From Mariprofundaceae bacterium (GTDB taxonomy: Bacteria; Pseudomonadota; Zetaproteobacteria; Mariprofundales; Mariprofundaceae): 33,636 nt of DNA. Of this stretch, positions 9,149 through 16,840 are shown piece by piece. The position numbers were made by a program, and so were the translations under genes. Location: NCBI GenBank assembly GCA_027018935.1, contig JALUXZ010000234.1, positions 1-33,636 on the forward strand. The letters run 5' to 3'. The notes under the pieces were generated by a model, which was given only the letters and a program-made list of their open reading frames with translations, had not been told where the DNA came from and did not search any database. The stretch's first letter is position 1. Each line of letters opens with the position of its first letter.

Positions 9149-9195
9149 TTTTGGGTACTATGTCGCCCAGACGGTCACGGTCGTCTATTGTTCCA

Positions 9196-9356
9196 GGGCA
9201 CCTCGAAAAACCTCGCACGAGTTAAACGTCGTTGATTTTCGCTCATAGCAAGGCGCAATAAAATGAGTAATAGCATCGCTATTACCCATTTTATTCAACG
9301 CAGCTAGGGGTGAAAAGCACAAGTTTAGCGAAGTGCCGAGGTTTTTCGAGGTGCCC
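9196..9356 (+). mobile_element. 161-bp MITE-like element, copy 1
   Basis: TIR GGGCACCTCGAAAAACCTCG...CGAGGTTTTTCGAGGTGCCC; flanked by TCCA on both sides; near-identical copies at 13019 and 31067. Confidence 0.85.
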
Positions 9357-12295: not shown

Positions 12296-13012
12296 GTGAC
12301 TGTTAAAGTTCAACGCAATGAGCCTTGCCCATGTGGCAGCGGCAAGAAATATAAAAAGTGCTGTATGCTTCAAAAACGTGAGCAGAGCGTGGCAAGTTTG
12401 GGGCGCAAAGAAGGTGTTCAGCTTGCATTGACTTGGCTGAATCAGCATTACAGCGAAGCGATTGAAGCTTGGGTTGAGAAGGTTTGGCTTGATGGTATAT
12501 CGGATGAGCAAAGGGCTGGTATTGCCAGTGCGGATGCAAGAATTCGCAGTATCCATGACATTAACTTGTTAGAACAATTATTATCAGAAGGAAACTTCTT
12601 AGATATAGATGGCGAGTCCTGTGCATTGACATTGGTGCTTGCTGCGGATGATCTGGGCTTGAATGATGCTCAACGTGATTATTTGAAGCAACTACCAACC
12701 TGTGCCTTGCAATTGTATCAAGTAACAGCTTGTCAGGCAGGTCAAAGCTTTACTGTGTGTGACGCTTTGAAAGATAAGGGTAAGGAAATTGTTATTGTTG
12801 ATAGTTATGCCAGCCGCATGTTTGAAGAGGATGATGTTGTTGCTTTAAGATTGCTGGAAACGCCTGCAGGTATGGAAACATCAGGTGCGATTTATCATAT
12901 TCCTGAAGCTTATGTGCAGGAATTAAAAGAGGCTTTATTGACCGCGAAACCAAAAGAGCACGCGAAGGTGCTGACTGCACGTTGGCTGGAGCTTGTCGCA
13001 GCCCATGTTTAG
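12296..13012 (+). CDS. SEC-C metal-binding motif protein (YchJ-like N-terminus)
   Basis: 'VQRNEPCPCGSGKKYKKCC'; GTG start. Confidence 0.85.
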   Translation: MTVKVQRNEPCPCGSGKKYKKCCMLQKREQSVASLGRKEGVQLALTWLNQHYSEAIEAWVEKVWLDGISDEQRAGIASADARIRSIHDINLLEQLLSEGNFLDIDGESCALTLVLAADDLGLNDAQRDYLKQLPTCALQLYQVTACQAGQSFTVCDALKDKGKEIVIVDSYASRMFEEDDVVALRLLETPAGMETSGAIYHIPEAYVQELKEALLTAKPKEHAKVLTARWLELVAAHV

Positions 13013-13018
13013 AGGCTA

Positions 13019-13179
13019 GGGCACCTCGAAAAACCTCGCACGAATTAAACGACGTTGATTTTCGCTCATAGCAAGGTGCAGTAAAATGAGTAATATCATC
13101 GCTATTGTCCATTTTATTCAACGCAGCTAGGGGTGAAAAGCACAAGTTTGGCGAAGTGCCGAGGTTTTTCGAGGTACCC
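13019..13179 (+). mobile_element. 161-bp MITE-like element, copy 2
   Basis: Same TIRs and length as copy 1; flanks GCTA/GGTA (imperfect duplication); begins 7 bp after the SEC-C stop. Confidence 0.85.
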
Positions 13180-13465: not shown

Positions 13466-14161
13466 CTAGAAGTCTAGCATCTTTATTTTAAGTTGGAAAA
13501 AAAACAATGCCACCATTTTAGGCTCAACCTTTGGGATGTAGGTCATATTGACTGATACGTATTCTGTCCCTATAGAGAGTACAGGTAATAACCCTAGGAA
13601 TGGTTTGTTATTACGAAATCCTTTTCGTGTCATGAGGAAAGAAACAACTCCCGCATCAACGTGCAAGTTATCCAGCTTTTCAGAAACTGTAAAACGCCGC
13701 ACAATGCCCCCACCTGCATAATAAGAAGCATTTGAATTGGAATCAAGAAACCCTGATGCACTCACAAAGGGAATCCAGTTCTCATGCCATGGGTCAAAAT
13801 CATATTGCAGGCCACCGCCCCAATTATCTTCATTATAGGTTTGGCTGGCTGGGGCAGATTCAAGGTGAATCGCTTTGCCATTTAGTAGCGCATGCAAACT
13901 ACCCGCTTCGGCATGGTCAACGCTAGATAGCATAGAAACACTTATAAGCAGCAATAAAAGTGATAGCCCTGTAGACACACCAAGCTTGTTGCTTTTTGGA
14001 AAATAGGTTGACCTTCTTTGTGCTTTAAAATAGTTGCGAGACTTATCTGTCGCTCTGAATAAACACGACTTTAGTGTCTTGAGCATCAGCTTGGGGACAT
14101 AGAACAAATAAATAGCGGTGTAGCAAGAAGATGTATTGTTAATTTGTAATTGTTTACTCAT
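13466..14161 (-). CDS. PagP-like outer-membrane beta-barrel protein (lipid A acyltransferase-like)
   Basis: 'YNEDNWGGG', 'FLDSNSNASYYAGG', 'LLPVLSIGTEYVSVNMTYIP' parallel recalled E. coli PagP 'YNERPWGGG', 'FKDSWNKWEPIAG', '[20 protein letters not shown]'; internal signal-like hydrophobic stretch; true start probably downstream. Confidence 0.6.
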   Translation of the reverse strand: MSKQLQINNTSSCYTAIYLFYVPKLMLKTLKSCLFRATDKSRNYFKAQRRSTYFPKSNKLGVSTGLSLLLLLISVSMLSSVDHAEAGSLHALLNGKAIHLESAPASQTYNEDNWGGGLQYDFDPWHENWIPFVSASGFLDSNSNASYYAGGGIVRRFTVSEKLDNLHVDAGVVSFLMTRKGFRNNKPFLGLLPVLSIGTEYVSVNMTYIPKVEPKMVALFFFQLKIKMLDF

Positions 14162-14304: not shown

Positions 14305-14429
14305 TTTATCATATTTCTGAAGCTCATGTGCAGGAATTAAAAGAGGCTTTGTTGACCGCGAAACCAAAAGAGCGTGCGGAGGTATTGACTGCACGTTGGT
14401 TGAAGCTTGTCGCTGCCCATGTTTAGAGG
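14305..14429 (+). pseudogene. Duplicated 3' tail of the SEC-C gene (remnant)
   Basis: 125 bp aligned without gaps to 12891-13015 with about 11 substitutions, including the same TAG stop and following AGG. Confidence 0.85.
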
Positions 14430-14477: not shown

Positions 14478-15032
14478 TTAGAAGTGATAATTAGCGGTTG
14501 CGGAAATGCCTCTGATTTTAGCTTTAAAATTCTGAGAGCTGTCTGCTTTATTTGAATATTGTACATATTCAGCGCCAATAGAAATAGCATCTTGGATTTT
14601 ATACTCAAATCCTGCGCCGAAACTGACTTGAGTTTTTGTCTGACTTGTGGATGGGTTTCCGCCTCCAGTGACAGTTACTTTAGCCGTTGTCGCACCAATA
14701 AGTCCATAGATGCTGGCTTGTTCTGCAATGGGAAACTGTGGTTTTATCAAATAAGAGATAAAGCTTACTTTGGATGACACGCCTCCTGTATTACTTACCG
14801 TTGATGATTTGATTCCACCAATGCGTAACTCTGCACCAATATATGGGTTGAAATCAGCCCCTCCCTTCAGGAAGCCGCCAAAAGTTGAACTGGTTTTCAA
14901 GCCAGAGCCGAAATCGGTGGTGAAAGTTCCCAAACCAATACCCACATAAGGCTTCACTTCTGAAGCTTGTGCATTCACTGTCGCAAAAGCCACGATAATG
15001 CTGGCAGCAGCCACGTTAAAAAAAGTTTTCAT
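14478..15032 (-). CDS. Outer-membrane beta-barrel (porin family) protein
   Basis: Signal peptide 'MKTFFNVAAASIIVAFATVNAQA'; alternating strands 'KPYVGIGLGTF', 'FGAGFEYKI', 'GISATANYHF' ending in aromatic F; upstream RBS. Confidence 0.85.
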   Translation of the reverse strand: MKTFFNVAAASIIVAFATVNAQASEVKPYVGIGLGTFTTDFGSGLKTSSTFGGFLKGGADFNPYIGAELRIGGIKSSTVSNTGGVSSKVSFISYLIKPQFPIAEQASIYGLIGATTAKVTVTGGGNPSTSQTKTQVSFGAGFEYKIQDAISIGAEYVQYSNKADSSQNFKAKIRGISATANYHF

Positions 15033-15088
15033 ATTAATTCATTCTCCTTACTATTTTTAAGGGTGTTTAAGAAAGCACCAATTATTGC

Positions 15089-15117
15089 AAGCTAAGTGTG
15101 TGGGGGGGGGGAGTCAA
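15089..15117 (-). promoter_or_regulatory. Putative promoter with poly-C spacer upstream of the barrel gene
   Basis: - strand: TTGACT - C10 ACACACT (17 nt) - TAGCTT. Confidence 0.45.
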
Positions 15118-15178
15118 GCATCATCGATGCTATCCTTTTCTGGATGCTTTTTGTATGCGCTTGTTGTAAGATTTTCGC

Positions 15179-16840
15179 ATGTCTTATTTGGTATTGGCTC
15201 GACGCTGGCGGCCACAATGTTTTGCTGATCTTGTGGGTCAGGATGTGGTGGTTCGCACCCTTAAAAATGCTTTAAGCTCAAATAGTTTGGCACATGCTTA
15301 TTTGCTGACGGGAATTCGTGGTGTTGGCAAGACGACCATTGCACGTTTGATGGCAATGTCGGTGAATTGTTCTGATCAACATGATGGTGAGCCTTGTGGT
15401 AAGTGTGATGCATGTGTGGCGATTGCGGCTGGAAGTCATTTGGATGTACAAGAAATGGATGCTGCTAGCCATACGGGCGTAGATGATATGCGCGAAATTC
15501 TTGATGGTGTGCGTTATCCACCTGTGAGTTTGCCGTATAAAGTATATATTATTGATGAAGCGCATATGCTTTCAAAATCAGCATTTAATGCACTTTTGAA
15601 GACGCTTGAAGAACCGCCTGCGCAAGTATTATTTATTTTAGCCACGACTGAATCGGAAAAGTTACCTGTAACCGTGAGATCGCGCTGTCAGCGTTTTGAT
15701 TTGCGACGCTTGGGTGTGCAGGAAATAGCAGATTATTTAAAACATGTATTAACAAAAGAGTCTGTTGAAGCAGAGTTAGAAGCATTGTTGACCATTGCGC
15801 GTGCCGCAGATGGTAGTGTGCGTGATGCACTATCGTTAACTGAACGTGTATTGGCTTATGCGAATGAGAATATTAAGGCGGAGGATGTGCGTCAGGCTTT
15901 GGGGATGATTGGCCCTGAAGTGGTGCAGCAATTATCCGATGCTATTGTAGAAGGTGATGCAGAGGCAGCAGTATTGACCGTGCGACAGGCAGCCATGCAA
16001 GGTAGTGCGCCACGAGCATTGTTGCTGTCATTGTCGGAATTATGGCATCAAGTAGCCTGCATGAAAGTGGATGGTAGTTTGATTTCAGATGTGCCATCGG
16101 AGCAGACCCAGCAATGGCTTGAACAAGCTGTTATGCAGTGTTCTTCTGAAGGTTTGGATATGCGCTATCAGGTGTTGATTCATGGGCTGCGCGACTTGGG
16201 CTTGGTAGATGAACAACGTGGCGTGGAAATGATTGCCATGCGCTTGTGTCATTTGAATACACTGCTTGAAGGTAATCACTCTTTGCAGAAAAAAAAGCCT
16301 GGGCAAGAGGCTTCTTCGGTAAGTCATGCGAGGACTGAAAAATCTGAAACAGTGGTTACGGAGCGGGCGGAGTTGGTGAAGGCTGAGCCTAGTGTTGTAG
16401 TTCCTGTGGTTGAAAGAAAAAACTCTGAAGTAACCGAAAAAGTGCAGCCATCTTATGAGCGTTGGGAAGATGCTGTTGAGGCATATAGCCATGTTCGACC
16501 AGGTATAACGGCTTTGTTGGAGCATGTGATTTGTATTGAATATCAAGCATCGCAGGTGCGTTTGGCACTGGATGCACATCAGCAGCGAGCTATTGTAGCG
16601 CAAGAGCGTAAAGCCTTTGAAACATGGCTGAGGCGTGATGTGTTGTGGGAAAACAAATCGCAGGGTGGGCATGTGGAAACAATTTCTACAGTTCGAGCCC
16701 GACATGCGGATGAAGAGAAAAAGCGTGTATGGCAGGAGGCTGAACAAGATCCTGCGGTACAGCGATTAAAACAAGAACTGGATTGCCGTTTGGTGGATGT
16801 ACAGCCAGCGGCGAAAGAAAATGGAGTGAATGAGTCATGA
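15179..16840 (+). CDS. dnaX: DNA polymerase III subunit gamma/tau
   Basis: 'LARRWRPQCFADLVGQDVVVRTLKNAL', 'LLTGIRGVGKTTIARLMA', 'YIIDEAHMLSKSAFNALLKTLEEPP'. Confidence 0.96.
   Translation: MSYLVLARRWRPQCFADLVGQDVVVRTLKNALSSNSLAHAYLLTGIRGVGKTTIARLMAMSVNCSDQHDGEPCGKCDACVAIAAGSHLDVQEMDAASHTGVDDMREILDGVRYPPVSLPYKVYIIDEAHMLSKSAFNALLKTLEEPPAQVLFILATTESEKLPVTVRSRCQRFDLRRLGVQEIADYLKHVLTKESVEAELEALLTIARAADGSVRDALSLTERVLAYANENIKAEDVRQALGMIGPEVVQQLSDAIVEGDAEAAVLTVRQAAMQGSAPRALLLSLSELWHQVACMKVDGSLISDVPSEQTQQWLEQAVMQCSSEGLDMRYQVLIHGLRDLGLVDEQRGVEMIAMRLCHLNTLLEGNHSLQKKKPGQEASSVSHARTEKSETVVTERAELVKAEPSVVVPVVERKNSEVTEKVQPSYERWEDAVEAYSHVRPGITALLEHVICIEYQASQVRLALDAHQQRAIVAQERKAFETWLRRDVLWENKSQGGHVETISTVRARHADEEKKRVWQEAEQDPAVQRLKQELDCRLVDVQPAAKENGVNES
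16289..16313 (+). other. dnaX: Candidate slippage/frameshift site in dnaX
   Basis: A8 run (AAA AAA AAG in frame) overlapping hairpin AAGCCT-GGGCAAG-AGGCTT; -1 frame stops at 16336-16338, +1 frame at 16320-16322. Confidence 0.55.

Follow-up and report, generated by a model that had tools for sequence, protein, structure and literature searches.

Does a run of ten cytosines in front of an outer-membrane protein gene of a member of the Mariprofundaceae act as a slippage switch on that gene? Transcriptional phase variation in its simplest form relies on a repeat between the -10 and -35 elements, and expression is maximal when these are 17 or 18 nt apart (PMC4235727). The window, by which we mean the whole stretch of 33,636 nucleotides that was analysed, contains such an arrangement, and we consider it probable that the C10 promoter is a slippage-driven transcriptional phase-variation promoter of the beta-barrel gene that follows it.

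The proposed promoter, its tract and its neighbours

On the minus strand, the -35 hexamer TTGACT (positions 15112–15117; five of six bases agree with TTGACA) is followed directly by the C10 homopolymer (15102–15111, read as G10 on the plus strand), the proposed site of slippage. The tract and the adjoining ACACACT form a 17-nt spacer (15111–15095) that ends at the -10 hexamer TAGCTT (15089–15094), which is weak, with three of six matches to TATAAT. This layout had been described in the sequence-only reading, and inspection of the letters bears out its coordinates and the 17-nt spacing. The promoter also stands before the barrel gene as claimed there, but the distance of about 65 bp needs correction, the -10 element lying 56 bp and the tract 69 bp from the ATG (15032). 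The 56 bases in front of the ATG (15033–15088, minus strand) would form the 5' leader, with AAGGAG as the putative ribosome-binding site.

With the -10 element at 17 bp, the promoter scores 9.3–9.5; in a simulation that placed C/G10 in random flanks, a score of at least 8.6 was reached in about 0.6% of trials, compared with 9.3 for the window. A strict sigma-70 scan (at least 4/6 in each hexamer) did not list the promoter, because TAGCTT agrees with TATAAT at only three positions. When tract length was varied in silico, a single score optimum was obtained, at C10 (17 bp) in the window and at C12 (17 bp) in the sister species described below; predicted strength depends on tract length by matrix score, the matrices being of E. 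coli type and their output a prediction.

The gene behind this promoter (14478–15032, minus strand) encodes an outer-membrane beta-barrel protein of 184 aa with a signal-peptide-like N-terminus and a C-terminal Phe. It matches the Pfam families OMP_b-brl (PF13505, E 6.8e-26) and OmpA_membrane (1.3e-8), the match to Opacity is borderline (21.2 bits against a cut-off of 21), and neither OpcA nor any porin family is among its Pfam matches. When a profile built from the protein and its ortholog was compared with the PDB, it matched OmpX/Ail and OmpA chains. Because of these Pfam families and profile matches, the product is, judged by its sequence, not a classical porin but a small OmpA/OmpX-type barrel, and the earlier description of it as porin-like has to be given up. 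A surface location is predicted for the product (PF13505, OmpA/OmpX-like). An AlphaFold model made from two sequences had a pLDDT of 34 and was unusable.

The divergent neighbour is dnaX (clamp loader gamma/tau, assigned by Pfam; 15179–16840, plus strand). The tract was also considered as an element of dnaX and rejected in that role: in genus members without the OMP neighbour, dnaX has another gene upstream and the tract is absent, which assigns the tract to the OMP promoter. In the interval that separates the start of the OMP gene from that of dnaX lies the dyad AGCATC-ATC-GATGCT (15117–15131, no strand assigned), which the sequence-only reading had described as abutting the -35 box and as a possible operator. 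Its sequence and coordinates are right, though one base overlaps the -35 box. A repressor operator at 15117–15131 was rejected: the dyad is absent from the flanks of the sister species, which leaves the operator idea unsupported, and the pattern has one further copy in its own genome, which is not a regulon-like recurrence.

Conservation in a sister species

A class-wide protein search of 78 genomes gave a single close ortholog (76% protein identity), encoded on NVTQ01000050.1 of the same-genus MAG NORP111 (here G002, contig C101). The sequence upstream of the ortholog is TTG-C10-TTATGCTT-TATAAT; 70 bp separate the tract from the ATG, and the promoter can be written as TTGCCC-15-TATAAT, with a 15-bp spacer and a perfect -10 element; in the leader alignment, TAGCTT of the window faces this TATAAT. 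A homopolymer of at least 8 nt lies between the -35 and -10 elements in both sequences, and its length is exactly C10 in both species (one genome each). The two genes are strongly diverged (dN 0.15, dS 1.39), differing at 39/70 fourfold sites (fourfold identity 0.44), and the leaders are 57% identical. A simple estimate from the fourfold (0.44) and leader (0.57) identities puts the neutral survival of an intact 10-mer at p ~3e-4 to 3e-3, a value to be taken as indicative because the renewal of repeats by slippage is ignored. That the tract is exactly kept in the one close ortholog, in spite of such divergence, strengthens the case for a switch. At the other OMP homologs of the class that were fetched with flanks, a subset of those from the 78-genome search that included paralogs from the window's own genome, no C or G tract of at least 9 was found.

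From the folate, NAD-transhydrogenase and leuCD genes through the OMP gene, the window is for the most part collinear with G002. The divergent dnaX/OMP arrangement is common to both, and an IS-like element now splits that of G002, whose contig ends 116 bp upstream of the tract, within the end of a multi-copy element. The 16-base flank of the element, AAGCTGGCAACAATAC, recurs beside dnaX on another contig, and comparison of the flanks gives a conserved stretch next to dnaX, followed by the -35 box and the tract. On contigs C35 and C101 of G002 (L157, L167), AAGCTGGCAACAATAC stands on both sides of the insertion element that separates dnaX from the OMP gene; if it is a target duplication, its 16 bases would be unusually long. 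Elsewhere in the window, a direct repeat (12891–13015 and 14305–14429), in which the 3' end of a SEC-C-motif gene is duplicated, flanks a PagP-like gene (13466–14161) that was not seen at the corresponding place in G002. A 162-nt repeat with 94% identity (9195–9356 and 13018–13179) has similar sequence (cctcgaaaaacctcg) on other contigs of its own genome and is probably an interspersed element.

We propose that the C10 tract would serve as the variable spacer of a sigma-70-type promoter of the barrel gene, that slipped-strand mispairing would add or remove C's, and that a changed number of C's would alter the -35/-10 distance and with it transcription. In the window, C10 would give the 17-bp optimum, for which near-maximal expression (ON/high) is predicted, and lengths outside C9–C11 are predicted to be weaker; G002 at C10, with its 15-bp spacer, is predicted to be suboptimal and would be weak or off. 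A switch would be expected to leave two sampled genomes in different states, as is predicted here from E. coli-type matrices. Sister cells would then differ in their surface exposure of the barrel protein, a plausible benefit against phage or predators. The phase-variation promoter put forward in the sequence-only reading therefore gains from the C10 at the orthologous place and the perfect TATAAT of the sister, while its operator component falls away. Points against a switch are the poor -10 element of the window, the C10 state of both sequences, the presence of only two orthologs among the genomes compared, and a number of G/C tracts of at least 10 per genome (three) that is near chance.

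Competing explanations

The tract may instead have no function: a homopolymer that by chance stands between hexamers resembling promoter elements and that both species have from their common ancestor. The window's own genome (G000, 2.57 Mb) has three G/C tracts of at least 10, with 0.84 expected under an iid model or 1.4 under a first-order Markov model; with about one such run expected per genome and three found, the mere existence of the tract is not evidence. The weak -10 element and the many other long G/C tracts of the genus at unremarkable places are likewise consistent with chance. On the other side stand the low neutral-survival estimate given above, with slippage renewal ignored, and the position of the tract in G002, where the C10 at the OMP promoter is the sole C/G tract of at least 10 in the genome. 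We regard the chance explanation as unlikely.

In the window itself, all other G or C runs are of 6 or less. The G/C tracts of at least 9 in the genus were ranked by scoring both strands for a promoter with the tract inside its spacer, the MAG G010 being excluded since its runs resemble contig-end artefacts; the best three of 58 tracts (116 strand views) were a G9 tract on contig C73 of G002, then the G002 ortholog and the window. When the class was scanned for TATAAT preceded by C9+ or G9+, the ortholog was the only place found, and backward controls gave 3 and 4 matches, so that the count is no evidence and only the position of the ortholog is. Genus-wide poly-C density was rejected as evidence, since hairpin loops, contig-end artefacts of G010 and unremarkable sites account for most of the tracts.

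Several of these other tracts have features of their own. In G010 (L105–L116, L123–L127), long C runs stand beside contig ends, many of them followed by ACTTCCAGAG-like sequence, and look like artefacts. Poly-C tracts of 9–14 occupy the loops of strong hairpins (17–18 enclosing pairs, -22 to -25 kcal/mol) at L057:996-1004, L066:2516-2524, L099:2534-2542, L100:2522-2535 and L118 ~2456 in the genus; several of them are followed by T runs, resembling intrinsic terminators. A G10 in the window's own genome (L021:5189-5198, G000:C264) is preceded by A9, has a score that is not promoter-like, and stands 131 bp in front of two genes resembling a ccdAB toxin-antitoxin pair.

The C-run may also be functional but fixed, a spacer or regulator site of one length that is not hypermutable, and the identical C10 in both species could reflect purifying selection. 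However, the spacers measure 17 and 15 bp, so C10 does not provide a common functional spacing, and in the well-studied case of Neisseria fetA, polyC of 8C or longer switches and 6C is not phase-variable, with high expression at 9C/10C, intermediate at 11C, and low at 8C and 12-14C (PMC13293289). The likeness to fetA is a polyC in the core promoter, and the C10 of the window falls within the fetA switching range; fetA encodes a TonB-dependent receptor, and its length variation is seen across many sequenced isolates, whereas here there is one genome per species. At nspA, a small outer-membrane protein gene that likewise has a homopolymer upstream of the -10 element, the promoter poly-A (A5/A6) sets expression, and no switching was detected (PMC6389960); the window has a 10-nt C run in place of A5/A6. 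By analogy, a fixed effect of the nspA type remains the fallback, and a fixed element appears to us distinctly improbable.

A post-transcriptional role, in which the tract would lie within a leader RNA transcribed from an upstream start and act as an sRNA target or leader structure, has a precedent in such repeats as the G-repeat target of H. pylori mentioned in PMC4235727. The tract, however, is only 67 bp from the dnaX start codon, and the hexamers most like promoter elements are those on either side of the tract; we think this role very unlikely. An assembly artefact at the homopolymer, for which the artefact-like C runs at contig ends of G010 and the 7.8% contamination of G000 might speak, is scarcely credible for a tract that lies mid-contig in a syntenic block and occurs at the same place in an independent MAG.

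Known switches and an unexpected lineage

The porA gene encodes a trimeric porin and carries a poly-G tract in its promoter. The likeness to the phase-variation promoter proposed here lies in the homopolymer within the -10/-35 spacing, which is poly-C before an OmpA/OmpX-type barrel gene in the window. Varying the -10/-35 spacing changes porA expression (van der Ende et al. 1995, as cited in PMC5084427), and at the poly-C of the opc promoter of Neisseria meningitidis, expression follows tract length (Sarkari et al. 1994, as cited in PMC5084427 and PMC6389960). Like opc, the barrel gene of the window encodes an outer-membrane protein and has poly-C in its promoter, whereas protein family (PF13505 in the window) and lineage are unrelated, and the length-dependent expression is that of opc. 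Membership of the window gene in the Neisseria Opc or PorA families by homology was rejected on its Pfam matches. The resemblance to opc, porA and fetA, the Neisseria genes that serve as reference, is, by analogy, one of promoter design: analogous, not homologous.

Spacer-type phase variation has been documented best in host-associated pathogens, with immune escape as the usual explanation. The switch proposed here is of known design in an unexpected lineage, and a full-text search of the open-access literature for phase variation in Zetaproteobacteria gave one incidental co-mention and no paper on the subject, and none joining phase variation, SSRs and iron-oxidising bacteria. We infer that the lineage is Ghiorsea (Zetaproteobacteria), MAGs of which have been placed at North Pond (PMC10734525). 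It is possible, if a little short of probable, that an opc/fetA-type spacer switch on a surface barrel protein arose independently in this marine lineage, which is free-living and probably an iron/hydrogen oxidiser, and has been maintained in more than one species, with phage or predators, not host immunity, as its most likely targets. Conservation of such a switch in a lineage of environmental chemolithotrophs would suggest selection of another kind, for example by phage, and would offer a locus at which to test it.

The sister species has a second promoter-tract candidate. On contig C73 of G002 (L064:225-233), a G9 tract enclosed in TTGACT-18-TATGGT precedes, by about 40 bp, a gene for a secreted acidic protein, of which no homolog was found in other genus members; if true, it would make a small phase-variable repertoire.
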